Shown here in pieces: positions 43,424 through 61,220 of a DNA stretch of 64,000 nucleotides. The first letter of the stretch is position 1; each line of letters starts with the position of its first letter. The position numbers and the translations under genes are program-made. This DNA comes from Daedaleopsis sinensis (taxonomy: Eukaryota > Basidiomycota > Agaricomycetes > Polyporales > Polyporaceae). The DNA is taken from contig CM066309.1 in the NCBI GenBank assembly GCA_033807695.1, forward strand, positions 2,728,001-2,792,000. Reading direction: 5' to 3'. The notes beneath the pieces were generated by a model. That model saw nothing but the letters and a program-made list of their open reading frames with translations, searched no databases and had not been told where the DNA came from.

Positions 43424-43706
43424 TTACTGCGCTGTGCGTTTCGTCGCTGATCTGTATCTGCAGTGGCGAAGTCGTATGCACAGCGCTGAGGGCCAGCATG
43501 ACCCCAGTGGAAGTGCAAGAGATATTAGGTTCGAAGACCTCACCGTTGGGTCCAAGGTCGTGGTGGAGCTCGTGTGTGCTCAACTTCCATGCGACGAGTT
43601 GGGGACTCCTGGGTTTTTGTTGGCTCACAGTGTTACCAAGTTGACTGGCGATGCTGAGGCGCAAGTGATCGGGAGCGGGGTGATCTCTGGAGGGCAGTGT
43701 ATGCAT
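43424..43706 (+). repeat. Inverted repeat, left copy (gene fragment)
   Basis: 283 bp matching, in opposite orientation, 46291-46573. The encoded peptide is the same throughout, in both sense and antisense readings, so the DNA appears essentially identical. The copy contains part of an intron and the last exon of the minus-strand gene at 46285-47252 but lacks its 5' exons and its stop context, so it is a non-functional duplicate. Confidence 0.9.
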
Positions 43707-46284: not shown

Positions 46285-47252
46285 TCACGTATGCATACAC
46301 TGCCCTCCAGAGATCACCCCGCTCCCGATCACTTGCGCCTCAGCATCGCCAGTCAACTTGGTAACACTGTGAGCCAACAAAAACCCAGGAGTCCCCAACT
46401 CGTCGCATGGAAGTTGAGCACACACGAGCTCCACCACGACCTTGGACCCAACGGTGAGGTCTTCGAACCTAATATCTCTTGCACTTCCACTGGGGTCATG
46501 CTGGCCCTCAGCGCTGTGCATACGACTTCGCCACTGCAGATACAGATCAGCGACGAAACGCACAGCGCAGTAAGCACTCACCCCCGCCTTTGCGGCTGCG
46601 ACGATTACAGACACCACCGTCACACCCTCATCGCCCGGAAGACGACCTCGAACCACCCGTAACGCCTCCTTCAACGTGCGTGCATCACTGACGCGCGGCA
46701 CCTCGATATCTAGCATGTAAATTGCAGGCTGACCGAATAATTCGCTAATCTTGCTGGTCGAAGCGACTTCACCAAAGATGCAGAGCTGCATTGGGCCATA
46801 CTGGTCGAATAACGCGTTCAACCCCCCAAAGGGCTGCAAGACTGCTTTCCCCGTGGAAACGTACGCGGCATTCACCAGGGGCCATGTCGAGTATACGCCC
46901 CCAGCAAAGTGCGTAAAGCGACTACCACGCGCCTCAGTCGCGTACGTCAGGAAGGCACTGGCTATTACACTCACAAGTACACGGGCCTTACATGCCACGA
47001 GCCTCCCGTTTTCCCTCGAGCACTAATCAGTCTATACGACAATGTCAGTGTCGACGCATGCGCAACTACGCCATCAACTTACGCGAAACCGACCTCGTTA
47101 CCCTCCACAATGTAATCCGTGGAATTCCCCTCGCGAACTGTCCCCATCCGTAACTCGTCGCCAATGTGCACAACACGCAACGTTGGCCTGATGATGCCAA
47201 CTGGTTTGACGTTGACTAAATCGAGAGAGTCAGCCCCAGCAGGCGTCGCCAT
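46285..47252 (-). CDS. Unrecognised repeat-associated gene family, left member
   Basis: Starts MATPAGADSLDLVNVKPVGI (ATG at 47252). Exon 1 ends EGNEVGF just before the donor at 47082. A central exon reads RGSRFTHFAGGVYSTWPLVN, then GPMQLCIFGEVAS, YMLDIEVPRVSDARTLKEAL and VIVAAAKAG. The last exon reads DIRFEDLTVGSKVVVELVCA, TPGFLLAHSVTKL and ends GGQCMHT. The final intron (GTGAGT...CTGCAG, 46 bp) lies inside the inverted repeat. The exons in the 46.95-47.08 kb interval are not resolved. The gene is homologous to the minus-strand gene at 62213-63120. I recognise no known domain. The 13.8 kb retrotransposon inserted about 160 bp upstream of its ATG, so its own promoter has probably been displaced. 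Confidence 0.5.
46291..46573 (-). repeat. Inverted repeat, right copy
   Basis: 283 bp, reverse complement of 43424-43706. Here it is in its natural context: part of the last intron and the last exon of the minus-strand gene 46285-47252. This copy is therefore the likely source of the left one. Confidence 0.9.
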
Positions 47253-47412: not shown

Positions 47413-47416
47413 GCGG
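47413..47416. repeat. Target-site duplication, left
   Basis: GCGG directly before the 5' LTR, repeated directly after the 3' LTR at 61217-61220. Four bases match; a fifth does not. Confidence 0.7.
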
Positions 47417-48377
47417 TGATGCGCCCCGTAGTGGCGCCAGCCCCGCTTTTCGCGCCATCGCCGATATACGGCGATGCCTACTACGACACGCTGGCCAGGA
47501 CGGAGTCCCTGCCCTCGACCTCCCACTCCAGGACCACCACATCCCTCCGACAAGGCGGTCGGAGGGGACGCCTCATGCGGCCCACGCAGCGCGCGAGGCC
47601 TCCGGCCTCCAACGGGCGCGACGCCCTTCCCTCCAACGGGCCGCGCCCGTAGGAGGCTTGCGAGTGTTCCCCGCAGCCCCGGCAGGAGGCTGGGCAGCAG
47701 CCTGAGGACCGCTCCGACACCCGAGACCAGAGCGGGCCGCAGTTTAGGTTACAGGCATCGTGCGGGACCGATGACACGCTAGTCGCAGGCGGAGGCGGCG
47801 GTGCAGGGGTCCAGGCGTAGCCGTTCCTGACCGTTCTACGAGACCAGGCGGTAGGACCCGACTGGCGCCCAGGCCGAGGGTTTAGCCACGGTTCCGCCTC
47901 CTCGCGGAACTGCGACAAGGCGGGTTCGAGGTAGTTTCAGGAGGCACTGGAGAGTAGGGCAGAGGGTTACGAGCGGGCGGACCACGCTGGAGGCTCCGGA
48001 TTGGACGAGGTTCGAGGTACCGCACGGGACGGTAGCAGTAGATAGGATGCCCGCGTAGAGGACTTGTAGCCTCAGATCCCCCATCCCCCATATCCATACA
48101 GGCGCGAGCCCAGCGGTCCGACGCACTCGACGACCTCGCTGTCGAGCCCGTCCTCGGTGTGATCTCCTTCGAGCCCCGTCCTTCCACGTGCTCCGCCCGT
48201 CGTAGTTCCCTGTCCCCTTCTCGATCCCTCGCTCTCCGGCCTTCGACGTGCGCGTCTCGTCGTAGTTGTTCGTTCCAGTTGCTCGGGAACCAGAGGTCCA
48301 CCTCGCACCCTTCGGAGCGTCTGCCCGGTGTTGTGTCTGCTGGGTTTACCTAGTAGATCGCCGGTGCCCTCCCATCA
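47417..48377 (+). repeat. 5' LTR (961 bp)
   Basis: Begins TGATGCGCC and ends CCCATCA, with short inverted ends TGATG/CATCA. It is identical in length to the 3' LTR. One difference was noticed: C at about 48318 here, T at about 61157 in the 3' LTR. Open frames inside are identical in both LTRs and are probably not genes. Confidence 0.95.
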
Positions 48378-48929
48378 CTTGGAGCCCACCGCGAGGGGAT
48401 ATTCTCTGCTACCTCTGAGGTCAAGCTGCAACCTACGCTACGACCGGTCCCTGACCCCGCACGCACCCGAAGCACCACGTCCGGCTCCCGCCCTCCTCGA
48501 CCGCCGCCCACGGAAGAACCCCGGCCCGTCTCCCAGCGCAGTGCCTCTCCTCTGACCGATCTCGACGAGCTTCCCGAGACGGAGGACCACCCCGCGCCAG
48601 TACCTCCTGCCACCTCTCGCGCTCGCCGCACATCCACCTCCGTCCCGCCGCGCGTCCCGGCCCCGCGGACTACACAGAACTCGCGAAGAGCTGCTGCGAC
48701 TGCGGTCGCCCCCGGATTCGACGCTCCCACCGCCTCCGCCGTACGACGAGCTGGTAGAGAACCGACTCCACGAGCTCCCTTCCCTAGCGTAGCACCCCCG
48801 GCACCTCGGGTTCCCCCTACGTCCAGCGCATCCCGCCGTACAACTGCACCTCCGCCGCCGCCCGCACAGCAACCCTCCCAATCGACCGCCCCGATTCCCC
48901 TGCTTCCTCCTGCAGCGACTGTACCCACC
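48378..48929 (+). other. Retrotransposon leader with extended open gag frame
   Basis: 552 bp between the LTR and the gag ATG. The gag frame stays open through nearly all of it and encodes a Pro/Arg/Thr-rich stretch, but no ATG in that frame was found. The ATG at 48930 has a good context (CCCACCATGG). Confidence 0.6.
48380..48397 (+). other. Candidate tRNA primer-binding site
   Basis: Two bases after the 5' LTR the sequence starts TGGAGCCCACCGCG, as expected for a site complementary to a tRNA 3' end (CCA). The tRNA species could not be identified by eye. Confidence 0.55.
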
Positions 48930-51554
48930 ATGGCCTCCCCGCTCGACGCACTCCCTGCGCGCAACAGCCGGCAGGCGCCCGTGTGGAAAGAGGCTGATAC
49001 CACCCGCGACGACGTGGAGCTCTTCTTCAAAGATCTCGATCGACTCTACGCGCAGAACTCCGTGACCGACCTCGCTGATCAGAAGAAGGGTGCGGTTACC
49101 CTCTACGTCCCTCCGGACGTTGCTAAGGCATGGGCACTACTGGACACCTTCGACGACGCGAGCAAGACGTGGGAGGACCTCAAGGAGGAAGTCTTAGGGT
49201 TCTACGTCGGCTCCGACAAAGACCATGTCTACACTCGACGTGAGTACCGTTCCCTGATAGACTCGACCCTCGCCTCCGGAATCCGCTCCCTCCCCGAATA
49301 CCTCGCCTTCTATCGGCAATTCTTCCCGCGCTACAAGTACCTCTCCACGAAGCAGCCCACGGCCGAGGTCTCCGGACCGGAAGGGGTCGATGACCTCCTT
49401 CGCGTTGCTCCCGTATTCGTACGCGACAAGGTCGACAACTACCTCAACCTGAAGCATCCGAACAAGCATAGGGACGATTCGTACCCGCTCGCGGACGTCC
49501 ACGAAGCAATCACGTACAGTCTCGAAGGGATCCCGCGCGCGCTCGAAGCCCGCGTGCCGCCGACGTACCCCGCCCCCGCACCAGCGGCAGGCACCGAGCG
49601 CCGAGGACAACCGGTGAAGCCCGAGCCGACGATCGAGACACTCCAATCGCAGATCCAGAACTACGAGCGCGACCTCCGCGATCTCCGCGACCTCACGCGC
49701 GGTTGGACGAATCTCCTGGCAGCGCGCCCGCCACAGGCTGTACCTCCTCCACTCGCGCCGGCAGCAGCTCAGCCCGCGGCCGCAAACCTACCTCCGCCCA
49801 TGCCTCCGCGTATGCCACAAAACCAGTACGGCTACATGCGTCCCCCCTGCTTCTATTGTAACGAGGAGAACTGTCACTCGCGACGCTGCCCGGCCTTCGC
49901 GGAGGACGCGGCGAACGGACTCGTCATCCGCAACGAGCGCGGCTACATGGTCCTTCCGAACGGCAACGAAGTACCCCGTACCTGGCCAGGGCTCACCATG
50001 CGCGACCGCGTGCACAACTGGCACGAGCACAACCCAGGGCAGAAGGTCCAGGCCGCCGCCGCACAGATGATGGTCACGGTGGAGTCCAACATGCTAGAAG
50101 GCGCGACGAACGTCACGGATATCCAGGATCGGATCGATAGCCTCCGCCATCAGGCGTCCATGTTGGAGCACCGCGTCGCGACGCGCAGCCAGGGAAAGCT
50201 ACAATTCGACGGGGTGGAACTGCCCGCGCGGAAGAAGGCGGTCCGCATCGACGAGAGCCGGAACCAGGCCCATGCCCCTCAGGACGCCACGGTGGACCTA
50301 CCCCGTGAAGCACGCGGGGGCCGCGACCTGCCTCCTCACCTGGCGCCGGCGGGAGATAGAGCGGGGTCGCCAGCAGGCCCGCTAGTAGGCCCCGAGCTTC
50401 GCGCGCAGGAGCACCCTTACGCCAGGGCACGAGACGCGACGAATGCAGGCGACCTCGCGCCGCCCGTCACGAAGAAGACGGAGTCGAACCCATCAGTGAC
50501 CGCCCCGGCATCCCTTCAACCTGCGCCGCGCGCGGGGACGGAGACGGTAACGCACGCTCCGAGACCAACCCCGGTACTTGTCGACCCAACCGCCGGCCGT
50601 CGCGTCTTCGAGCGCGCCTTCGGGAAGGAGCAGCGGGTCATGGTGTCCCCGGCAGAACTCGTCAGCATCTCCCCGGAAGTTCGCAAGTACGTACACGAGG
50701 CGACCTCGCCAAGGCGTGTCTACGCCGCGCGCCAGGCAGTGGAAGGAACGCAACTCCCTCCTGCGCCGCGCGAGGTAACGGCACAAGCTGCGGAGCCGGC
50801 GAGGGCGGCACCCGAGCCCAGACTTCAAGTCGCGCAATCGATGGTACAGCAGGCGTGGCCCTGGAGCCCGGACGAAGAGGACGAGGAATGGTCGGACGAG
50901 GAGGAAGGAGAAGAGTTCTACGATGCGCTTCCCGAAGAGGAGGGGGAGACCCACTGCTTTCGTACGACCATAGAGGAGGTTGAAGACGAAGACGACGACC
51001 TGCGCGCGCGCGCGCCCTTGCACTCGCGCGTCGAGACAATCCAGGGCGAAGACCTCATCGTTGCAGAGCCACTAGCCCCTCTCCGGTCGATCTACGGCTT
51101 CCTAGGCGCGACGGACCTCACTACGGAGTGCGTCCTCGACTCCGGGTCGCAGTCCATCTCGATCAGCGTGGAGCACTGTCATCGCCTCAAAATCGCGTAC
51201 GACCCGACCGCCCGGCTGAACATGGTCAGCGCAAACGGAACATCGGACACAACCCTGGGGATGGCGCGGCACGTTCCACTCGAGGTCGCAGATGGGTTCA
51301 TCGTCTATCTCCAGATGCAGGTGGTCGAGCATGCTAGTTTCGATGTCCTGATGGGGCGCCCCTTCGAGCTGCTCACAGCGATGAAGGTCAACAACGAACT
51401 CGACGGCCGACAGTCCATCACGATCACCTGTCCGAACACGCATAGTACGATTACCTTGCCCACGTACGCGCGCGGCGAGCCGCCGGCGCGTACGCGCAGC
51501 GAGAAGGCCAAGCCGAAGAAGTCCCCCCTGGGGTTTCTTCTTTCGAGGATCTGA
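48930..51554 (+). CDS. Retrotransposon Gag with aspartic protease
   Basis: 874-residue frame. The N-terminal ~200 residues are a helical capsid-like domain (VWKEADTTRDDVELFFKDL, VPPDVAKAWALL, LPEYLAFYRQFFPRYKYL). A Pro/Ala-rich linker follows, then a knuckle at about residue 306 (CFYCNEENCHSRRC) whose Cys/His spacing (CxxCx5Hx3C) differs by one from the usual CxxCx4Hx4C. After a long disordered, acidic region there is a retropepsin-like domain at about 725-850. Its catalytic motif is VLDSGSQ (DSG in place of DTG) near residue 736, and the second half motif is DVLMGRPF near 805. Fusion of protease to Gag, rather than Pol, sets protease at Gag stoichiometry. The pol frame is -1 relative to this one and overlaps its end. 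Confidence 0.93.
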   Translation: MASPLDALPARNSRQAPVWKEADTTRDDVELFFKDLDRLYAQNSVTDLADQKKGAVTLYVPPDVAKAWALLDTFDDASKTWEDLKEEVLGFYVGSDKDHVYTRREYRSLIDSTLASGIRSLPEYLAFYRQFFPRYKYLSTKQPTAEVSGPEGVDDLLRVAPVFVRDKVDNYLNLKHPNKHRDDSYPLADVHEAITYSLEGIPRALEARVPPTYPAPAPAAGTERRGQPVKPEPTIETLQSQIQNYERDLRDLRDLTRGWTNLLAARPPQAVPPPLAPAAAQPAAANLPPPMPPRMPQNQYGYMRPPCFYCNEENCHSRRCPAFAEDAANGLVIRNERGYMVLPNGNEVPRTWPGLTMRDRVHNWHEHNPGQKVQAAAAQMMVTVESNMLEGATNVTDIQDRIDSLRHQASMLEHRVATRSQGKLQFDGVELPARKKAVRIDESRNQAHAPQDATVDLPREARGGRDLPPHLAPAGDRAGSPAGPLVGPELRAQEHPYARARDATNAGDLAPPVTKKTESNPSVTAPASLQPAPRAGTETVTHAPRPTPVLVDPTAGRRVFERAFGKEQRVMVSPAELVSISPEVRKYVHEATSPRRVYAARQAVEGTQLPPAPREVTAQAAEPARAAPEPRLQVAQSMVQQAWPWSPDEEDEEWSDEEEGEEFYDALPEEEGETHCFRTTIEEVEDEDDDLRARAPLHSRVETIQGEDLIVAEPLAPLRSIYGFLGATDLTTECVLDSGSQSISISVEHCHRLKIAYDPTARLNMVSANGTSDTTLGMARHVPLEVADGFIVYLQMQVVEHASFDVLMGRPFELLTAMKVNNELDGRQSITITCPNTHSTITLPTYARGEPPARTRSEKAKPKKSPLGFLLSRI

Positions 51555-51583
51555 CTGACAGTCAGGGAGATCTCGCCCTCGTC

Positions 51584-54500
51584 GTGGAGTACGACCACAC
51601 GACGGGCCAGTTGGACCTGACCTCGTACGCCGAACTCGAAGATACCAGCCCCGAAACGATTCAGCACGCCTATCTATTCGCGACCGATGACCCCGAAACA
51701 TCTACAAAAATCAACAACGCTTTTGCCTCTGCTTCCTTCGTTTCCTCCGTTCCGCTCTCTCCGTCTGAAGTACCGTCGTCGTTCGATACCGCGTCGGCGA
51801 AGGCCCCCGGGCCTGGTCCAGAACCTCGACCCCCAAAAGCGGCTCCGCAGGAGTCGCACCCATACTACGTACGCGCGCGCGCGTACCCCTCTCGACCGAC
51901 AAAATCGCTGGGCCGTCGCCCTACTCCCCTTGGCGCACGAAGCGCGTCCCCCACCGGCCAGGCGCGAGCGCGCGCTTGGCCTGAAGAATCCATCGAAGTC
52001 TACGCGAAAACGAAGAAGAAGTACAAGCCGGTCGCAAAGAAAGTACGTCCGGTAGCGAGCCACCTCCCGGAACACTTCCGGATAGTGCGGAACCGCGTCG
52101 GCGACCCCCTCGAAAACATGCCCCAGCTCGATGCGAATCCGCCCCCCTTCAAGCCGACCGGGAGGTACACCCAGGAACGACACGACCTGATCGACGAAAT
52201 CCACCGGGAGTGGCTGTCACCGGAGGAGCTACGCGTCCTACACGACCTCATGTGCAAACAGGAGCTCGCGTTCGCATGGGAAGAGTCCGAGCGCGGTCGT
52301 TTCCGCCAAGATATGTTTCCTCCTGTACGGCTCGCGGTAGTCGACCACGTTCCTTACAATGAAAGAAACGCTCCCGTCCCCCCTGGCATCTTCCGCGTGC
52401 TCCTCGAGATGATCAAGCAGAAGATCGACAATGGCGTGTACGAGCCGTCCAACGCGTCGTACCGCACGCGGTGGTTCTGCGTGCTCAAGAAGGACGGGAA
52501 GTTGCGCATCGTCCACTCGCTCGAGCCGTTGAACCGCATCACGATCCAACACAGCGGAGTTCCCCCCGTACCGGAGCACATCGCGGAGCAGTTCGGAGGG
52601 CGCCCCTGTGGCTCGACCTTCGACCTCTACGTCGGCTACGACGAGCGGGAGATCCATCCCGACTCGCGTGACCTCACGACATTCCAGACCCCGTTCGGCG
52701 CGATGCGGCTTACCACGCTGCCCATGGGATGGACGAACTCCGTACCTATCTTCCACGACGACATCGCGTTCATCCTCCAGCCGGAGATGCCGGACCACGC
52801 AGCAAACTACATCGACGACGTCTTCGTCATGGGCCCGAAGAGCGCGTACCTGTTGGAGGACGGAACTCCCGAATGCATCCCCGAAAACCCCGGAGTCCGG
52901 CGCTTCGTCTGGGAACAGCTGCGGAACGACAACCGTATCATTCAGCGCATCAAGCACGCAGGAGGTACGTTCTCCGGTAAGAAGTCGCGCTTTGCGCCCC
53001 CGCGTTTTGGCGCCCTCGGAAGCCGATGCACCCCGGAAGGGCGCGTGGCGGATCCGGAGTGCGTACAGGCCGTAGTCAACTGGACAGTATGTAAGACGGT
53101 CTCCGACGTGCGCGCGTTCCTGGGTACGGTTGGAGTCGCGCGCATCTTCATCAAGGACTTCGCGAAGATAGCGAACCCGCTCAACAAGCTGCTCCGGAAG
53201 GACGCGCCGTTCGAATGGGGGCCCGACCAGGTGCGCGCGATGGAGGACCTCAAGTCGGCGCTAGCCCACTCCCCGGCGCTCCGAGCGATCGACTACGAGG
53301 ACGACGCGCCAGTCATCCTCGCCGTCGACACGTCGAAGATCGCAGTCGGCTACCTGCTATGCCAAGAAGACCGGGACGACCCCCGCCGACGCTACTACAG
53401 CCGTTTCGGGTCGATTACCTTGAACGACCGCGAAGCGCGCTTCTCGCAGCCCAAACTGGAGCTGTACGGCTTGTTCCGCGCGCTCCGCGCGATGAAGCTC
53501 TGGCTCGTGGGCGTCCGGAACTTAGTAGTCGAGATCGACGCGACGGCGATACGCGACATGCTGAAGAACCCGGACATCGCGCCTAGCGCAGTTATGAACC
53601 GGTGGATCATCGCGATCAGTATGTTTCACTTCGAGCTACGTCACGTTCCTGGGGTACTGCACGGACCTGACGGACTCAGCCGACGCGTCCGACAACCCGG
53701 GGACGAAGAAGGCGACCAAGAGGAGAACGAGGAGTTCGACGACTGGATCGACAACATGTACGGCTTCCTCCACCTCGTGAACCTACCACCGCGGTTGCCA
53801 GACGCACCCATCGTATACTCCACGCCGCGCACGGCGCGGGAGGTCGACGCCTTCTTCCAACAGACCAGCGGGACGGCCGCATCCACGCCGGCGATCAAAC
53901 CGCCCGACTACAGCGCCTGCCCGCGTACCTCAGCGGCGCAAGAATTCGACGCGCGCGTAGACCTCGTCCAGCTCTGGCTGAAGAACGGTTCCCTACCAAC
54001 AACGTCGGAACGCGCACGCGAGCGATTCGAGAAGTACGCGCGGCAGTTCTTCCTACGCGACGACCGACTGTGGCGTATCGCGCGCGACGGGAACCATCGA
54101 CGGGTACTGGGTCCCGACACGCGCATGGAAGTACTGGTAGCGCTACACGACCACCTCGGCCACCGCGGGATCGCCGCGACGATTTCATTCGTGGGGGAAC
54201 GCTTCTGGTGGCCCGAGATGAAGGCCGACATCGCTTGGTATGTTAAGTCCTGCCACCAATGCCAGGTCCGCCAGACCTCGCGCGTTCAGATCCCGCCCAC
54301 GGTCGCACTTCCCGCACCCCCCATGGTCCGCGTCCACATGGACACGATGGACATGCCCGGCCGATACAAGCACTTCTTCCACGCGCGCTGCGCGACGACG
54401 AGTTATGCGGAAGGTCGCGCCTCCACTGTTCAGACCGCGAAGGCCCTGGGCGATTGGATCTACCAGGACCTACTGTGCCGGTGGGGCGCCCTCTCCGAGA

Positions 54501-55315
54501 TTGTGTCTGACAACGGGTCCGCCTTCGTCGCGGCTCTCGAGCATCTGGAGCGACAATATCACGTAAAGCACATCCGGATTTCGGGCTACAATTCGCGCGC
54601 GAATGGAATCGTGGAGCGCGCGCATGTCGACGTCAGGGAGGCCCTGTTCAAGTCTTGCTTCGACGACGCGCAGAGCGAGTGGGTGTCTAGAGTCTACTCA
54701 GTGCTCTGGGCGGACCGCGTAACCACGCGGCGCCGGATGGGGTGTTCCCCTTACTTCGCAGTGACCGGGACGCAGGCTATCTTACCCTTCGACATCGCTG
54801 AAGCTACCTACCTCATGCCAACGCCGACGGAGCTCCTATCGACGGCGGACCTCATCGCGCAGCGCGCGGTGGCACTGCAGAAACGGCCAGAGCAACTTGA
54901 GAAGCTACGCTCGCGAGTCTATCGCGCGAGGGTCCACGCGGCACAAGAGTTCGAACGCCTGCACGCGCGAACGGTACGCGACTACAACTTCGCGCGCGGG
55001 CGGCTGGTCCTCATCCGAAACACGGCGATCGAGAAGTCCCTCAACCGCAAGATGCGCCCGCGATACCTGGGACCACTGGTGGTGGTTTCTAGGAACCGTG
55101 GAGGGGCCTACATCGTGGCGGAGCTGGATGGAGCGGTCCACGACCGCCCAGTCGCCGCATTCCGACTGCTCCCCTACCTCGCGCGCGAAGAGCTGATCGC
55201 GTTCGACCTGTCCGACTTAGACGTGTCACGTGACCGCGTCGCCCAGATGGAGCAGGACGAGGACGACTACGACGACCGCGGCGAACCTCAGGACACGCAA
55301 GACGAGGAAGACTGA
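51584..55315 (+). CDS. Retrotransposon Pol (RT, RNase H, integrase)
   Basis: About 1243 residues, with no stop. The frame is open upstream into the end of gag and has no ATG at its start, so it is probably made by -1 frameshifting near the end of gag (a GGGGTTTCTTCTTT stretch at about 51531 is a candidate site). Domains by approximate residue: RT 290-480, with FDLYVGYDE near 346 and YIDDV near 408; RNase H 575-700, with AVDTSK, LELYGLF and VEIDA; integrase zinc motif LHDHLGHRG near 853 and CHQCQ near 890; and DDE core with MDTMDM near 919, SDNGS near 975 and IVERAH near 1010. A GPY/F module (RYLGPLVVV) lies near 1160. All catalytic acids are present. There is no chromodomain; the C-terminus is acidic. 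Confidence 0.95.
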   Translation: MEYDHTTGQLDLTSYAELEDTSPETIQHAYLFATDDPETSTKINNAFASASFVSSVPLSPSEVPSSFDTASAKAPGPGPEPRPPKAAPQESHPYYVRARAYPSRPTKSLGRRPTPLGARSASPTGQARARAWPEESIEVYAKTKKKYKPVAKKVRPVASHLPEHFRIVRNRVGDPLENMPQLDANPPPFKPTGRYTQERHDLIDEIHREWLSPEELRVLHDLMCKQELAFAWEESERGRFRQDMFPPVRLAVVDHVPYNERNAPVPPGIFRVLLEMIKQKIDNGVYEPSNASYRTRWFCVLKKDGKLRIVHSLEPLNRITIQHSGVPPVPEHIAEQFGGRPCGSTFDLYVGYDEREIHPDSRDLTTFQTPFGAMRLTTLPMGWTNSVPIFHDDIAFILQPEMPDHAANYIDDVFVMGPKSAYLLEDGTPECIPENPGVRRFVWEQLRNDNRIIQRIKHAGGTFSGKKSRFAPPRFGALGSRCTPEGRVADPECVQAVVNWTVCKTVSDVRAFLGTVGVARIFIKDFAKIANPLNKLLRKDAPFEWGPDQVRAMEDLKSALAHSPALRAIDYEDDAPVILAVDTSKIAVGYLLCQEDRDDPRRRYYSRFGSITLNDREARFSQPKLELYGLFRALRAMKLWLVGVRNLVVEIDATAIRDMLKNPDIAPSAVMNRWIIAISMFHFELRHVPGVLHGPDGLSRRVRQPGDEEGDQEENEEFDDWIDNMYGFLHLVNLPPRLPDAPIVYSTPRTAREVDAFFQQTSGTAASTPAIKPPDYSACPRTSAAQEFDARVDLVQLWLKNGSLPTTSERARERFEKYARQFFLRDDRLWRIARDGNHRRVLGPDTRMEVLVALHDHLGHRGIAATISFVGERFWWPEMKADIAWYVKSCHQCQVRQTSRVQIPPTVALPAPPMVRVHMDTMDMPGRYKHFFHARCATTSYAEGRASTVQTAKALGDWIYQDLLCRWGALSEIVSDNGSAFVAALEHLERQYHVKHIRISGYNSRANGIVERAHVDVREALFKSCFDDAQSEWVSRVYSVLWADRVTTRRRMGCSPYFAVTGTQAILPFDIAEATYLMPTPTELLSTADLIAQRAVALQKRPEQLEKLRSRVYRARVHAAQEFERLHARTVRDYNFARGRLVLIRNTAIEKSLNRKMRPRYLGPLVVVSRNRGGAYIVAELDGAVHDRPVAAFRLLPYLAREELIAFDLSDLDVSRDRVAQMEQDEDDYDDRGEPQDTQDEED

Positions 55316-55863
55316 GTGGGCCGGGCCCCCAGGAGGGAGCCAATTTCAGTTGGGGGGAGAACGGCGGCGACAACGCGCGCAGGAGGAAGGAGCGCTTCAA
55401 CACCAGGCCTGTGTAGCACACCGACTCGCACTTGTACTCCCTTACCAACAATCAATTCAACTCTCCCTTCCACGAAACTAGACTATGAGCTACACGCGAC
55501 ACGAGACGGAGACCAGACGACGATGCATTCCGGGCCAAGCGTACAAGAAAGCGGACTTACAGCAAGCGCGACCAGAAGGACCAGCGGTATATACGGGAGC
55601 GTAGGCTCCGGAGCGTACAAAGCGACGACGACGACAGCGACGAGCGAGAAGGAACGATGAAAAGAGAGAGACGCGAGGGCGAGAGGAGGGACAGGATTAG
55701 GGATTGGAGGTATAGTAGGGAAGAGGAGGCGAGGCGATGAGGGCGCGAGCGCCGAGAGAAGTCCACGGAGAGAACATGACGAGAAGAACGGGGGGCCCAC
55801 GCGTACGAATCAAGCATGCAGAAGTCCAAGAGGGGGCCTACGAGGCGACCACTCGCCCGACGA
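55316..55863. other. Spacer between pol and the antisense cassette
   Basis: Purine-rich on the plus strand. It contains an internal copy of the polypurine-tract sequence at 55343-55360. No open frame supported. Confidence 0.6.
55343..55360 (+). repeat. Internal copy of the polypurine-tract sequence
   Basis: ATTTCAGTTGGGGGGAGA, identical over 18 bp to the sequence abutting the 3' LTR at 60238-60255. It lies 27 bp after the pol stop, where a cassette-free Gypsy element would carry its tract. Confidence 0.85.
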
Positions 55864-57874
55864 TCACGCGTCCTCCTTCAAGACCGCGCGGAGGACGGCG
55901 GCGTTGGGGTCGCTACTGAACTTGTCAGCGAACGACACCACCTCGGGCAGCCCGGGCGCGAAGTCGCTCCCAAACGGCTCCCCGGAGAGGCGTTGCTCGC
56001 GACGGCGGATACCGACGAGCTCCCGCGCGTTCGCCCAGATCTGCTCGACGAGGAAGTTCGCCCGCTCGCGACCCTCCCGCGCGAGGTCCAGGTCGAACGG
56101 CTCGAACTCCTCCTTGGGGAGCACCTCGGTCCCGGCACGCGCCTTCCCGGACGACGACGCGGAGGCGACGGGCCTCTTCTTCTTGTCCACCGCGCCGGAC
56201 CCGGCCTTCGTTGCGGAGGAAACGCGGGCCTTCTTGGGAGGAGGGGCCTCGTCCTCGTCCTCGGAGATCTCGACCACCTCGGCGTCAGGAGGCGCGCGCC
56301 CGTCCCCCGCCATGGCGGCGCTGACGGCCTGCGAGGTAGCGCAAGCGACGGCCAGCTCCTTCAGCTGCTCGGGCGGGGGGTAGGGAGTAGGCCCCTTGGC
56401 GGTCCCGATCAGCGTCAGGTGGTCACTCCGGTGAAAGAGCCGCCCCTGCAGCGCGGCCTGGTCGAGGACCCGAATCTCGCGGCCGCTCTTCTCGAAATCG
56501 CGCGCGACCCGGATGGCCTGGAGAGTGGTGTGGGGCTCGCGGCTGTTCGACCTCAGCGCGAACCCGGCGCCGTTATAGACACCGAGCACGGCGTTGGTCG
56601 CGGACTTGAACTCGCCCGTCGTGGACAGCCCGCCGTACATGCAGGCCGCCTTGTGCGTGGGCGGGTTCGCGCACCGGTCGCAGCGGAGACCGTTGGGGTT
56701 GGCCTTGGTGCACGGACGTCCGCTAGCCGCGCACTTGTCGCACGGCCCAGAGATCCAGACGGTCGCCGCGACCTCCCCCATGTTGTTGACGACGGGCGTG
56801 GGGGTCGAGCCGGTCTTCTTACCGGTGGTGGTGATCCGACCCTTCGGCGCAGCGGGGAGCGTGGTCTGGCGAACGGCGGACCGTCGAGTAACCCGTCCGT
56901 CCCCGGGCGTAGCGGAAGGAGCAGCAGCGGGGGGGGTCGGAAGGGTGAGGGGGACGGCCCCAGGCTCAGGCTCCGCCTCACGCTGGGCGCGCGTACGCTT
57001 CACTGGAGCCGTGGGGGTGAAGGGAGAGGCGAGCGGAGCCGCATCGTCGTCCGCCTCGACAGGGACAGGGGTCTGACGCGGGAGGGTGAGGGACTCGAGG
57101 AAGGAGTCGAGCTCCACGGGGTCGACGGCAGCGGAGGGGGTGGCGTCCCCCGGCGTGAGGCCCGGCCCGACAGCGACGGCGGGAGAGGCGGTCCCCTCCT
57201 CCTCGGGCGGCGGTGAAGCGGGGACAATCCACGGGGCGGCAACGTCTTCTCCGCGCGCGGCACGGTGGGCAAGGGCTTGGACGTCCGCCGGCGGGACGCG
57301 CGGAAGCTTGCGGTAGTCGCCCAGGAGCGCACACTCGTGCTGCTCCCACTTAGCGAGGAACAGGAGCCGGCGCGCGTTGCGCAGCCTGCCGGCGTGAGTC
57401 TCAGAAGCGACGCGCTGCGCGAAGAGGGCGACGGCACGGGCCCGGGACCGCGTGGTGTACTCCAGCACGACCTCGTACGCGTCGGACGCGTCGAAGACCC
57501 TTTTACTGGCCTCGAGGAACGGGGCGAAGGAGCCGTCGGCCTCGCCCAAGCTGTCGAACTCCAGCTGGTCCTGGTAGAGCCGAGGTTAGCAGTCGGGCAC
57601 GGATGGCGAACGAACCAACGGGGCGTACCATGCACTCGAGAGCGCGGTCAATGGCCTTCCGGGCCTCCGCCTCCCCCATTCGCGCCAACTCCTCCGCGCC
57701 AGTGTTGGCAAAGAAGTCCGCAGCCTCCTCAGCGGCAACCGAGGGTGTAGGGGAGGCCGACTTCGGGACGCGTTGGGTAAGCGGAGGCTCGGGGCCTGGG
57801 TCGGGTACGAGGGAAACGGACGAAGGAGGGACCGTAGGGAGCGTGACGGACGAAGGAGTGGCCGAGGGGGACAT
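55864..57874 (-). CDS. Antisense cassette gene 3: Zn2Cys6-like protein with SIM-like motif
   Basis: Two exons, 57629..57874 and 55864..57570, give 650 residues. The 58 bp intron has a GTACGC donor, a GCTAAC branch-type sequence and a CAG acceptor, and phase is preserved. The start (GCCGCCATGTCC) has good context. Residues 1-85 are Ser/Pro/Thr-rich then helical; about 85-185 is a helical region (VFDASDAYEVVLEY, RNARRLLFLAKWEQHECALL). A long Pro/Thr linker follows, then cysteines at about 359, 362, 369, 379, 382 and 392 (Cx2Cx6Cx9Cx2Cx9C), which fits the Zn2Cys6 spacing rule. Near 514 is VVEISEDEDE, a SUMO-interaction-like motif, with basic PKKARV and DKKKRPV after it. A final helix region precedes the stop. 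It lies inside the retrotransposon on the opposite strand to gag-pol. Role unknown; DNA or RNA binding in the nucleus is plausible. Confidence 0.8.
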
Positions 57875-58076
57875 GGCGGCGGCGAGAAGAGGTAGGAGAG
57901 AGAGAGAGGAACGAAGACGCGCACGCAAAAGAAGAACCCACGAAGGGCGCGACATTTTAAGGAAGGACGTACGGCCCAGGGGCCCATCAACTTCCCCTCG
58001 TCTCTGTTTACAAAACAACGCCGGGACGGACCCGGCGCGCGCTGCCGGAACGCTTCTATTCTTCCTACGGACTGCC

Positions 58077-58783
58077 TCAAAACTCCTCGTCGACTACTAT
58101 GGTATCCGGTGCGCCCCCTACGGCTTCGGCTTCCGCGGCGACCGCCTCCGCTGTCACTACGCCCGGAGCCCCCAATTCCGCCTGCCTCGCGCGCTGTGCC
58201 GCGACCCTCAACTGTAACGCCTCGCGCCGCTCCACCTCCGCGACAAGTAGATCGGTCTCCGCCTCCAACGTGCGCAGCCGCGCGGAGGTCGCGATCTCGT
58301 GTACAGGGTCCGCGAGCTGGGACTCCACTGCGTTCAGGACCAGACGCTGGTACTGGACGTACGCGCGCGCCACGACGAGGTATTGGTCGCGGATGGGGTC
58401 TACGACGTCCATCACCGCGTTGTCGAATTCGGCCTCAAGACGCTCGCCCTCTGGCAATCGGGCGAACGCTGCAGCTACACGGTGCAGGTCCTGACGAAGG
58501 ACGGTTGGAGCCCCGTCGTGAAGCGCGCACCAGGCCACCTAAAATGGGGAATTCAGTTCCCATTCTGGGCGACGGATCACAAGTTCGGAGCGCGTACTAA
58601 TACAGGCCCGATCTCTTGGAGCAGGTCCGACAGCCCGGGCCCGTCGACGTCACCAGCGGCAGCCTTCGTCTCGATCCGATCGAGGAGGCGAAGGAAGCGA
58701 CTCAGTATGGTGGCGGTGTAAGAATGGTAGAAGTCCCGATGGGAGTTCGAGAGCTCGAACAGAGGGCGCAACCGAACCGGCAT
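58077..58783 (-). CDS. Antisense cassette gene 2: helical coiled-coil-like protein
   Basis: Exons 58598..58783 and 58077..58538, with a 59 bp intron (GTACGC...TTTTAG), give 215 residues. The start at 58783 gives MPVRLRPLFELSNSHRDFYH, and the junction reads LLQEIGPVL|VAWCALHDGA. The protein is almost wholly helical by pattern, with heptad-like runs (RLRTLEAETDLLVAEVERRE, LQLRVAAQRARQAELG) and an acidic end (TIVVDEEF). No known domain is recognised. Its plan (short first exon, one intron, helical bundle plus coiled coil near the C-terminus) resembles cassette gene 1, so the two may be ancient duplicates. It lies 202 bp upstream of gene 3 in the same orientation. Confidence 0.72.
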
Positions 58784-59540
58784 GTGCGTCGGCGAGTAGG
58801 CGGGCGAGGAGACGCAGGGCACGAAGCTACCGCCCGCCCGGCCGCGTGGAGGCCTTTTATGGGCCACGCCATTCAGGGGGGGGGAGGCCTGGCGCCCAGA
58901 CCACGGCCCCGACTCAGCAAGGCGGCGCTGGCACATCGTTCTGGCGGCGCCATGTCTCGTCCCGACGGGAACTAGGGGGGAACTGAGCCCGCGCGCCCCC
59001 TTTCTCCGTCGGCGCACGAGGATGAAACGGGCGGGACCAGGGCGATAAACGGGCTGGAGCACAAGGTACTACGGTACGCGCGCGCAGGACTGGCGAGCGA
59101 AGCGAACAACACGCGGACTGGCGAGCGATTCGAGCGATACACGGACTGGCGAGCGAAGCGAGCGATACACGGACTGGCGAGCGATTCGGGCGATACACGG
59201 ACTGGCGAGCGATTCGGGCGATACACGGACTGGCGAGCGATTCGGGCGATACACAGACTGGCGAGCGAAGCGAACGATACACGGACTGGCGAGCGATGCG
59301 GACGACACACGGACTGATGAACACGAGACGACAGCGCGCGTGCGTAGGACCGACAGTCGATGCGGGCGACCCACGGACTGGTGAACACGAGACGGCAGCA
59401 ATAGCGGAGAAGCACGATGTACCCCCTGGCCCTACTCTAGCAAGACGGGCAGGGACCCTACAGGAAGGCGGACACGGCAGCGGCGATCACTACGTACGAA
59501 GCACCACCACCCCCCTCCCGCGGGTCGCGTGGCCGGCCAC
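58784..59540. other. Spacer between cassette genes 1 and 2
   Basis: Holds the promoter side of cassette gene 2 and a 28 bp minisatellite (59089-59312, with degenerate units after it). No gene seen. Confidence 0.6.
59089..59312. repeat. 28-bp minisatellite, 8 units
   Basis: Eight contiguous 28 bp units beginning ACTGGCGAGCGA and ending near ACACGG, differing at a few positions. A degenerate ninth unit follows, and related words recur near 59372. Units abut with no spacers. Confidence 0.9.
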
Positions 59541-60162
59541 CTAGAAGTAGTTATGGCCGCGCAGGGCGGACAGCTCGGCGTTGAGGGTCTCCCGTTCGGC
59601 CTCCAGGTCCCGGATTCGTTCGTCAAGCGCAAGCGCGAGAAGGATCCCCTCCCCTTCGGCGCGGTCGGCGGTACGGCGGAGGGTACGGAGTTCAACCAGG
59701 GACCGCTGGGCGATGGCACGTTGGGTCACGACCTGGTCGATGCGAAGAAGGCGGCGGTCGGAGGCCACACGGTTCTGGAAGGTGAGGAAGGCATCACGGC
59801 CGAAATCACGCCAGCCGTCCAGGGTGGCTCTCTCGACGCGAGCAATGAAGGCGGCCAGGACGGAAGCGGAGGCGCCGACGAGGGCAAGCGCGCCCTACGG
59901 ACTACGTCAGGCGTGGCTAGAGGGAGGCGGACGGAGGGCGTCTCACCACCATGTCGGCCAGGGCGACCAGCTCGGTTTCCACGCCCGGCAGTTGCCCCTC
60001 GGACCCCGCATCGGCTAGGACCTCGAATTCGACAACGGCGCGCTCGAGCTGTCGGGCCGCCAGCGCGTGCGCACGGGCCAGCATGTCCGGGTCCAACGGG
60101 CTGCTCGGGAAGGGCTGCGCGCGGAGGTTCGGGAAGGCGTCACGGGTGGGAGTTCCGTTCAT
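59541..60162 (-). CDS. Antisense cassette gene 1: helical coiled-coil-like protein
   Basis: Exons 59947..60162 and 59541..59894, with a 52 bp intron (GTGAGA...GTAG, with a CCTGAC branch-like site), give 189 residues. The start at 60162 (MNGTPTRDAFPNLRAQPFPS) is only 76 bp inside the polypurine tract and 93 bp from the 3' LTR, so this gene may be driven by antisense promoter activity of the LTR. After a Pro-rich start come helices (LARAHALAARQLERAVVEFE, GASASVLAAFIARVERATL) and a C-terminal coiled-coil-like run (LDERIRDLEAERETLNAELS). No known domain. It is first in transcription order of three genes in the same direction, all opposite to gag-pol. Confidence 0.72.
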
Positions 60163-60237
60163 GGTCAAGGTGGAGGAAGCCCGTCAGTCCAAACTGCCGT
60201 CCCTTTATACCACGCAGAGGGACCGGGGACGGTCCCG

Positions 60238-60255
60238 ATTTCAGTTGGGGGGAGA
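60238..60255 (+). other. Polypurine tract at the 3' LTR
   Basis: GGGGGGAGA ends exactly where the 3' LTR begins, as expected for the plus-strand primer of an LTR element. The 18 bp including flank are repeated after pol at 55343. Confidence 0.85.
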
Positions 60256-61216
60256 TGATGCGCCCCGTAGTGGCGCCAGCCCCGCTTTTCGCGCCATCGC
60301 CGATATACGGCGATGCCTACTACGACACGCTGGCCAGGACGGAGTCCCTGCCCTCGACCTCCCACTCCAGGACCACCACATCCCTCCGACAAGGCGGTCG
60401 GAGGGGACGCCTCATGCGGCCCACGCAGCGCGCGAGGCCTCCGGCCTCCAACGGGCGCGACGCCCTTCCCTCCAACGGGCCGCGCCCGTAGGAGGCTTGC
60501 GAGTGTTCCCCGCAGCCCCGGCAGGAGGCTGGGCAGCAGCCTGAGGACCGCTCCGACACCCGAGACCAGAGCGGGCCGCAGTTTAGGTTACAGGCATCGT
60601 GCGGGACCGATGACACGCTAGTCGCAGGCGGAGGCGGCGGTGCAGGGGTCCAGGCGTAGCCGTTCCTGACCGTTCTACGAGACCAGGCGGTAGGACCCGA
60701 CTGGCGCCCAGGCCGAGGGTTTAGCCACGGTTCCGCCTCCTCGCGGAACTGCGACAAGGCGGGTTCGAGGTAGTTTCAGGAGGCACTGGAGAGTAGGGCA
60801 GAGGGTTACGAGCGGGCGGACCACGCTGGAGGCTCCGGATTGGACGAGGTTCGAGGTACCGCACGGGACGGTAGCAGTAGATAGGATGCCCGCGTAGAGG
60901 ACTTGTAGCCTCAGATCCCCCATCCCCCATATCCATACAGGCGCGAGCCCAGCGGTCCGACGCACTCGACGACCTCGCTGTCGAGCCCGTCCTCGGTGTG
61001 ATCTCCTTCGAGCCCCGTCCTTCCACGTGCTCCGCCCGTCGTAGTTCCCTGTCCCCTTCTCGATCCCTCGCTCTCCGGCCTTCGACGTGCGCGTCTCGTC
61101 GTAGTTGTTCGTTCCAGTTGCTCGGGAACCAGAGGTCCACCTCGCACCCTTCGGAGTGTCTGCCCGGTGTTGTGTCTGCTGGGTTTACCTAGTAGATCGC
61201 CGGTGCCCTCCCATCA
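60256..61216 (+). repeat. 3' LTR (961 bp)
   Basis: Same length and ends as the 5' LTR. One base difference was noticed (T at about 61157). Confidence 0.95.
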
Positions 61217-61220
61217 GCGG
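61217..61220. repeat. Target-site duplication, right
   Basis: GCGG directly after the 3' LTR, matching 47413-47416. Confidence 0.7.

Follow-up and report, generated by a model that had tools for sequence, protein, structure and literature searches.

The retrovirus human T-cell leukemia virus type 1 (HTLV-1) carries a spliced antisense regulator, HBZ, which is started in the 3' long terminal repeat (LTR) and encodes a basic leucine zipper (bZIP) protein. Among retrotransposons, antisense accessory genes between pol and the 3' LTR are already known from plants and from one fungal element. The passages cited describe them for the plant Retand lineage, in which the TRP28 domain (PF04195) is found in 97% of clusters (PMC11963269, PMC7264820), and for the Boty-like Ty3/Gypsy elements of Botrytis cinerea, which have an additional antisense gene, brtn (PMC7264820, PMC8365987). 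In the passages cited, the VANC anti-silencing proteins of the Arabidopsis VANDAL elements form a fast-evolving family with conserved and variable parts, and noncoding tandem motif arrays are described with them (PMC5735166). Here, we analyzed a stretch of 64,000 nucleotides (the window) from the polypore Daedaleopsis sinensis (assembly GCA_033807695.1, contig CM066309.1, positions 2,728,001 to 2,792,000). It contains a complete Ty3/Gypsy element at 47417-61216 with three minus-strand genes, designated A, B, and C, between pol and the 3' LTR, on the strand opposite to gag-pol. Comparison of copies indicates that these genes are under protein-level purifying selection and that they belong to a module shared between diverged families.

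Each gene is interrupted by one GT-AG intron located between codons (phase 0), and the frames and introns lie exactly where the first-pass annotation of this DNA had drawn them (57571-57628, 58539-58597, and 59895-59946). As no intron length is divisible by three, the frame is kept only if the introns are spliced out; the splicing itself is predicted from sequence alone. A search of the 51.6-Mb assembly (24 contigs) with a 1-kb gene A query returned 10 places, and the surroundings of the nine others were compared with the window element. Six are close copies (F1a: C10b, C4, C8, C5a, C5b, and C3), while three form a diverged subfamily (F1b: C5c, C12, and C11) with a DNA identity of ~68 to 84% over the aligned pieces. 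The LTR pairs of C10b, C4, C8, and C3 have no differences and that of C5a has five plus an insertion in the 3' LTR; in F1b, the C12 pair is identical over 1024 bp and the C11 pair has one difference. With LTR pairs identical or nearly so, both subfamilies must have inserted recently. The 5' LTR of C5b was not found within its fetched piece, nor was an LTR pair within that of C5c. Spliced A has no internal stop in 8 of the 10 copies read. In C5b it is broken, with the acceptor lost, stops, and a frame shift, and in C11 it is interrupted by ~3.5 kb of inserted DNA. Spliced B is open in 10/10 copies and spliced C in 9/9, C of C11 being incomplete in its piece. The first-pass annotation held that its proposal would fall if other copies lacked the cassette or had broken frames throughout; inside this genome, the proposal survives that test for the families of this element.

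To estimate selection, the window element was compared with C12 by the Nei-Gojobori method with Jukes-Cantor correction. At a synonymous divergence (dS) of about 1, the ratio of nonsynonymous to synonymous substitution (dN/dS, or omega) is below 1 for all three genes, as the first-pass annotation had anticipated: 0.40 for A (dS 1.15), 0.14 for B (dS 1.06), and 0.12 for C (dS 0.95), compared to 0.05 for the 3' part of pol (dS 0.94). In principle, the frames could be artifacts, arising as shadow open reading frames (ORFs) in a G+C-rich element, with splice signals present by chance. The window has a GC content of 58%, and long shadow ORFs are numerous in it; one of them, in sense orientation over A, has 466 amino acids (aa). 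All six frames of exon 2 were therefore compared at dS ~1. The annotated frames of A, B, and C have omega values of 0.46, 0.14, and 0.07 and one stop position each, the terminal one, and they alone are both open and constrained. The fifteen other frames have at least one stop position in every case, with omega between 0.74 and 4.72 in 13 of them; omega is likewise low in plus frame 1 of B and C (0.28 and 0.18), but this frame has 6 and 4 stop positions. Intron lengths, moreover, change while frames are kept. Chance shadow ORFs are refuted for practical purposes by the six-frame comparison, and we consider an artifact hardly credible.

Gene A is the fastest evolving of the cassette genes. One copy, C3 (L020), is a mosaic relative to the window element, its DNA being 88% identical in A and 98% identical in B and C, and its A is 89% identical to an outside protein, P0001, to which window A is 84% identical. 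C3 is probably a recombinant element, and the mosaic together with the likeness to P0001 suggests an exchange of cassette genes from one element to another.

The module extends beyond this family (F1). Families and their distances were set by integrase identity to the window, and pol places were assigned from 113 matches: 11 to F1, 35 to F2, a high-copy family seen in genome searches with C, B, A, and pol, and 12 to others, while 55 rows were omitted (three short fragments, C9:859784, C6:4155778, and C3:445, and 52 at ≤28% identity). Between F1 and F2, C has ~30% identity (E of 1e-9), the cysteine domain of A matches at E values of 1e-15 to 2e-14, and B gives a local alignment with a z score of 9.4 (0/500 shuffles as good); a genome search at E ≤ 1 did not find F2 B. 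All three genes are antisense and follow pol in the order pol>A>B>C at 10/11 F1 places and 32/35 F2 places, the exceptions being a fragment in F1 and, in F2, one place at a contig end, one interrupted by ~36 kb, and one lacking a match to B. The count used 47 of 81 A rows (the 34 dropped being a second piece of the same genes), along with 45/45, 34/35, and 12/23 rows from the other searches. Wherever the cassette was mapped together with pol, it lies between pol and the 3' LTR, as had been predicted.

These counts bear on whether the cassette does nothing for the element, being either a captured host gene cluster that is passively carried along or a nested insertion of recent date. Six places with pieces of cassette genes (two of A, three of B, and one of C) have no mapped clade pol, outside the interrupted F2 copy, and the duplicated polypurine tract described below would fit read-through into flanking DNA plus a second element end. 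Against this stand the same gene order in two diverged families, the presence of A in four, and the selection on the genes, making such an origin very improbable; the gene order also rejects a nested insertion in one copy only. The earlier description of the cassette as "cargo" is not supported, as two families have all three genes as residents and four have A.

The 12 other pol places (two in F3, four in F4, four in F5, and two at 35 to 37% identity) were not matched by F1 or F2 cassette queries. Gene A was read 3' of pol in F4 (L059), and this F4 A as query finds antisense A at 4/4 F4 and 2/2 F3 places; at E ≤ 1 it recovers none of the F1 and F2 places. The cassettes of F3 and F4 are covered for gene A alone, read in one F4 copy and matched in both families. 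F4 A aligns with F1a A at a z score of 8.5 and with F2 A at 10.3 (0/1000 shuffles as good in each case), and its place, orientation, cysteine pattern, and local alignment suggest that it is kin to A of F1 and F2. In F5, which has 62 to 67% integrase identity, the one 3' end read consists of the pol stop, a short spacer, TTTCAGTTGGGAGGGGA, and then the LTR. At two loci this LTR is found again at a distance of 7.67 kb, and at the other three F5 places an LTR match (68% and partial at C9) begins 334 to 478 bp past the integrase match, implying that F5 is a repeated element in which the LTR directly follows pol and there is no cassette. We infer that F1 to F4 gained the module after the split from this cassette-free relative, rather than F5 having lost it.

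Sense introns are lost in retrotransposition, and the first-pass annotation had argued that antisense introns survive it. This argument fits the introns found here, which are kept between families with ~30% identical C proteins. Within F1, the introns of A, B, and C are at the same positions in all ten copies, with lengths of 58/57/52 bp (A), 59/57 bp (B), and 52/52 bp (C), and are GT-AG throughout except for the broken A acceptor of C5b. With phase kept and length variable, they have the features of spliceosomal introns. The likeness between F1a and F1b is 50% in the intron versus 61% in the exons for A, 61 versus 75% for B, and 54 versus 78% for C. In the one F2 copy read, a phase-0 intron follows exon 1 in all three genes (61 bp in C, 49 bp in B, and 55 bp in A), F2 A having further candidate introns, and the F1-F2 protein alignment spans the intron in B and C. 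Judging from these alignments, the intron position has outlived large protein divergence. Introns fixed in place while their length and sequence drift offer a clean natural experiment on how a retroelement keeps spliceosomal introns.

The same data address the idea that the antisense RNA is the effector, through double-stranded RNA-based control of copy number or silencing, with the proteins secondary. Antisense transcripts can pair with genomic RNA, as raised for plant elements in the passage cited (PMC7264820). However, the protein frames are constrained, gaps in A exon 2 are multiples of three in 9/11 cases (the other two having lengths of 1 and 2), and frame-breaking introns are kept. These are signatures of protein function and not of RNA alone, so that an RNA effector appears decidedly improbable.

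The polypurine tract is duplicated on either side of the module. Matches to TTTCAGTTGGGGGGAGA number two in the window versus 0.01 expected by chance, and its core occurs twice in 8/9 fetched 3' pieces of the other F1 copies; in the ninth, from C11, the internal tract core is present and the second core is in L036. The F2 copy read has AAGTGGGGGGGAGG at both the internal and the 3' tract sites, and CTCAGTGGGGAGGAGG follows pol in F4. Internal and 3' tract match each other in F1 and again in F2, yet the F1 and F2 tracts are not alike. Such likeness within and unlikeness between families suggests that the internal tract continues to act as a primer and that the module was inserted between this tract and the LTR, perhaps when read-through ran into the end of another element. 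The F5 tract right after pol fits this point of entry. As a weaker proposal, a second plus strand would be primed at the internal tract in reverse transcription and extend across the module. A duplicated polypurine tract would be a possible route for an element to gain genes beyond its 3' end.

A TATA-like box is located 41 to 86 nt upstream of the ATG in 8/9 genes of F1a, F1b, and F2, F1b A lacking one in that range, compared to 33/1371 minus-strand 90-nt windows of the element. Expression of the cassette from its own promoters, also part of the first-pass annotation, is therefore probable. Fungal Zn(II)2Cys6 factors have the spacing C-x2-C-x6-C-x5-12-C-x2-C-x6-9-C. The cysteines of A are spaced 2-6-9-2-9 in F1a and F1b, 2-6-9-2-8 in F2, and 2-8-8-2-6 in F4, so that F1a, F1b, and F2 fit the pattern and F4 has x8 instead of x6; the strict pattern has a single match among the six-frame ORFs of the window. 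PF00172 (Zn_clus) is the only Pfam match of the F2 A piece (E of 0.2), and A has basic patches besides the cysteine cluster. The hairpin in exon 2 of B is predicted with a local-distance confidence score (pLDDT) of 72, from four sequences. With regard to the transmembrane segment expected of an env-like gene, the best 19-residue hydropathy, which is not a dedicated predictor, is 1.04 for A, 1.27 for B (1.49 in F1b), and 2.19 for C (1.73 in F1b), and the hydrophobic stretch of F1 C is not kept in F2 C (1.08). The shared single phase-0 intron suggested that A, B, and C might have arisen from one gene by triplication, which is not claimed, as hhalign E values are 0.08 to 0.34 with reversed controls equal or better; by shuffles, mutual likeness reaches a z score of 2.7 or less, and B-C of F1a is matched by 7/500 shuffles.

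We favor a reading to which we would give an even chance of being right. In it, a clade carries a three-gene module, gained after the split from the cassette-free relative and sitting between the polypurine tract and the 3' LTR, in which each gene would be transcribed from its own promoter and then spliced. Genomic RNA would carry the intron complement, leaving the introns invisible to the spliceosome there and allowing them to survive retrotransposition. A would enter the nucleus and bind the element's own DNA, at the LTR or the spacer repeats, to control or de-silence the element, a step that we consider evenly poised; the small, probably helical B and C would be its partners. A is given this role because it combines fast evolution with a kept cysteine core, has basic patches, and finds parallels in VANC and Retand TRP28. 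That A regulates or de-silences its element is speculative and argued by analogy; counteracting silencing is likely as a class of function. It is a tentative and rather doubtful extension that the spliced three-gene module evolved independently, with its own promoters and with co-evolving tracts that yield a separate plus-strand segment, and that its zinc-cluster protein de-silences or tunes the element as a counterpart of VANC.

Several observations weigh against these interpretations. The F2 A match to Zn_clus scores 12.2 bits, below the gathering cut-off of 21 bits, F1 and F4 A do not match PF00172, and the F2 cysteine cluster finds no Zn2Cys6 chain in PDB, the best match (E of 0.5) being another zinc finger type. 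The AlphaFold model of A is unusable (pLDDT of 35), and its nuclear localization signal-type motifs also arise in 28 to 51% of shuffles. Masking of the cysteines leaves F4 A with only a weak likeness to A of F1a and F2 (z scores of 3.7 and 3.8, equaled by 7 and 4 of 1000 shuffles). Around its intron, the N-terminal part of A shows no significant F1-F2 similarity (465 and 69 of 500 shuffles as good in local alignment, 9 and 5 of 500 in global alignment), so that a matching A intron rests on order and phase. B has no PDB fold at E ≤ 0.001, and B and C have only weak, chance-level Pfam matches and none in NCBIfam. The TATA motif set was picked after inspection of the sequences, and close pairs with few changes give omega values of no weight (2.6 for C versus C5a). 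A 28-bp tandem array in the B-C spacer, with 2 to 9 units (counted as ACTGGCGAG) in seven F1a copies, is absent as an array from F1b, where three copies have one unit; together with the weak zinc-cluster score, this absence speaks against any simple version in which A regulates or de-silences the element. Finally, F5 is repeated without a cassette, indicating that transposition as such does not require the module.

The cysteine cluster and basic stretches of A could alternatively serve the replication cycle rather than transcription. For example, A might chaperone nucleic acids or, in the manner of Rev, export unspliced genomic RNA, and B and C might be helical proteins that take part in assembly or associate with the capsid. 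The helical hairpin predicted for B would suit such a role, as would genes that are constrained and stay with pol. Separate antisense transcription would be odd for stoichiometric particle proteins, however, gag has its own zinc-knuckle-like motif, and the F5 relative does without A, B, and C. On balance, a replication role seems unlikely, and a nuclear, DNA-binding A remains our preferred reading.

The window element is an intact, recent insertion. Its 961-bp LTRs align with 1/961 mismatch and have TG..CA ends, and the element is flanked by a 4-bp target-site duplication, GCGG/GCGG, at 47413-47416 and 61217-61220. The coordinates of its features are given in Table 1. TGGAGCCCACCGCGAGGGG follows the 5' LTR in F2 too. 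Pfam matches to the gag protease (PF13650/PF13975) are below the cut-off, while in pol the integrase zinc-binding domain and RNase H are above it and reverse transcriptase (RT) and the integrase core below it; a YxDD motif is present in RT, and an HHCC motif was also found. The best PDB match of pol is Ty3-G gag-pol (7q5b, E of 2.4e-33), and the order protease-RT-RNase H-integrase, with Ty3 nearest, identifies the element as Ty3/Gypsy. A chromodomain, the mark of chromoviruses, is not among the Pfam matches of pol up to an E of 10. The open frames of gag and pol share 51446-51554, ~110 nt in a -1 relation, which suggests expression by frameshifting.

Table 1. Features of the Ty3/Gypsy element, in window positions.
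Feature	Position	Strand	Description
5' LTR	47417..48377	+	961 bp, TGATG...CATCA; aligned with 3' LTR
Putative primer binding site	48379..48398	+	TGGAGCCCACCGCGAGGGG, next to 5' LTR
gag	48930..51554	+	Zinc-knuckle-like motif and aspartic protease (DSG); from ORF and motifs
pol	51446..55315	+	RT, RNase H, integrase; from Pfam; -1 frame relative to gag
Internal polypurine tract	55344..55360	+	TTTCAGTTGGGGGGAGA, directly 3' of pol; identical to 3' tract
Gene A	57874->55864	-	650 aa, intron 57628-57571
Gene A exon 1	57629..57874	-	82 codons, 246 nt
Gene A intron	57571..57628	-	58 bp, GTACGC..TACCAG, phase 0
Gene A exon 2	55864..57570	-	568 aa; cluster C-x2-C-x6-C-x9-C-x2-C-x9-C
Gene B	58783->58077	-	215 aa, intron 58597-58539
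Gene B exon 1	58598..58783	-	62 codons, 186 nt
Gene B intron	58539..58597	-	59 bp, phase 0
Gene B exon 2	58077..58538	-	153 aa, predicted helical hairpin
28-bp tandem array	59087..59316		8.2 units, B-C spacer; unit number varies among copies
Gene C	60162->59541	-	189 aa, intron 59946-59895
Gene C exon 1	59947..60162	-	72 codons, 216 nt; TATAAAG starts 47 nt upstream of ATG
Gene C intron	59895..59946	-	52 bp, phase 0
Gene C exon 2	59541..59894	-	117 aa
3' polypurine tract	60239..60255	+	TTTCAGTTGGGGGGAGA, just before 3' LTR
3' LTR	60256..61216	+	Aligned with 5' LTR, 1 mismatch

Target-site duplications were readable for the window element and eight other copies (GCGG, ACGG, GCGC, CCGG, ACGC, CCGC, ACGT, CCGC, and GCGG), those of two further copies being unreadable and outside this count. 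All nine are 4 bp long with a central CG, compared to a CG frequency of 0.086 outside the element, and the integrase therefore seems to prefer CpG-centered sites. The suggestion that the cassette guides integration finds no evidence in the cassette itself; what the duplications suggest is this preference of the integrase.

Other repeats were noted in the window and elsewhere in the genome. A near-identical second copy with identical LTRs (C10:2800432-2814259) lies ~11 kb past the window element in the opposite orientation. A perfect 283-nt inverted repeat, with arms at 43424-43706 and 46291-46573, 2.6 kb apart, has the same ORF piece in both arms. Three F4 pol places (C4:1832230, 1848239, and 1864248) are exactly 16009 bp apart, as if the elements sat head to tail. 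At C12:16587 and C3:4683699 there are B fragments, 67 to 68% identical and with a stop, near which no clade pol was mapped; they are perhaps relics of another subfamily. Outside this genome, one protein relative of A was found among the 7997 candidates sharing most words, three of B, and none of C, the A and B relatives carrying the source labels lgn and ena and having no genomic context. Neither B nor pol had a relative among viral contigs.

How does this module compare with known systems? Unlike an env-like accessory gene, which follows pol in sense orientation, A, B, and C are antisense. Similar to fungal Zn(II)2Cys6 factors (PF00172), A of F1a, F1b, F2, and F4 has six cysteines in the same order with similar spacing; it differs in that the Pfam match is far below the cut-off and limited to F2, and no Zn2Cys6 chain is matched in PDB. 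HTLV-1 HBZ is likewise an antisense, spliced, regulatory gene at a retroelement 3' end, splicing and regulation being predicted in our case, whereas here there are three genes, most with their own TATA-like boxes, and no bZIP Pfam match. VANC shares with A the features of an element-encoded, fast-evolving protein with conserved and variable parts, and with the element the noncoding tandem arrays; as described in the cited passages, it belongs to DNA transposons of a plant, while here the array is missing in F1b and DNA binding and demethylation would be hypothetical (PMC5735166).

The first-pass annotation had also raised the possibility of an undescribed retroelement type. For the antisense position there are precedents in Retand and brtn, whereas among the literature matches listed, open-licence only, there is no fungal LTR element with a multi-gene (three-gene) spliced antisense cassette or with paired tracts. 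The Boty-like element is, by description only, a fungal Gypsy element with an extra antisense gene, but it is from an ascomycete and has one gene rather than three, as far as the cited passages describe (PMC8365987). The Retand lineage (also Grande and RIRE2) has antisense ORFs in the same orientation between pol and the 3' LTR, as found here, a long pol-3' LTR region in which tandem repeats are frequent, and proposed DNA-binding regulatory proteins, according to the cited passages (PMC11963269, PMC7264820). It differs in its plant hosts, the word "intron" is absent from the main text of both papers, and their cited passages mention no duplicated polypurine tract. PF04195 gave no match in A, B, or C up to an E of 1, nor in the relatives scanned up to an E of 10. 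This genome combines four families that have up to three of the genes with a relative that has no cassette, and this fungal parallel to plant Retand elements allows the role of antisense accessory genes to be approached by comparing elements with and without them.

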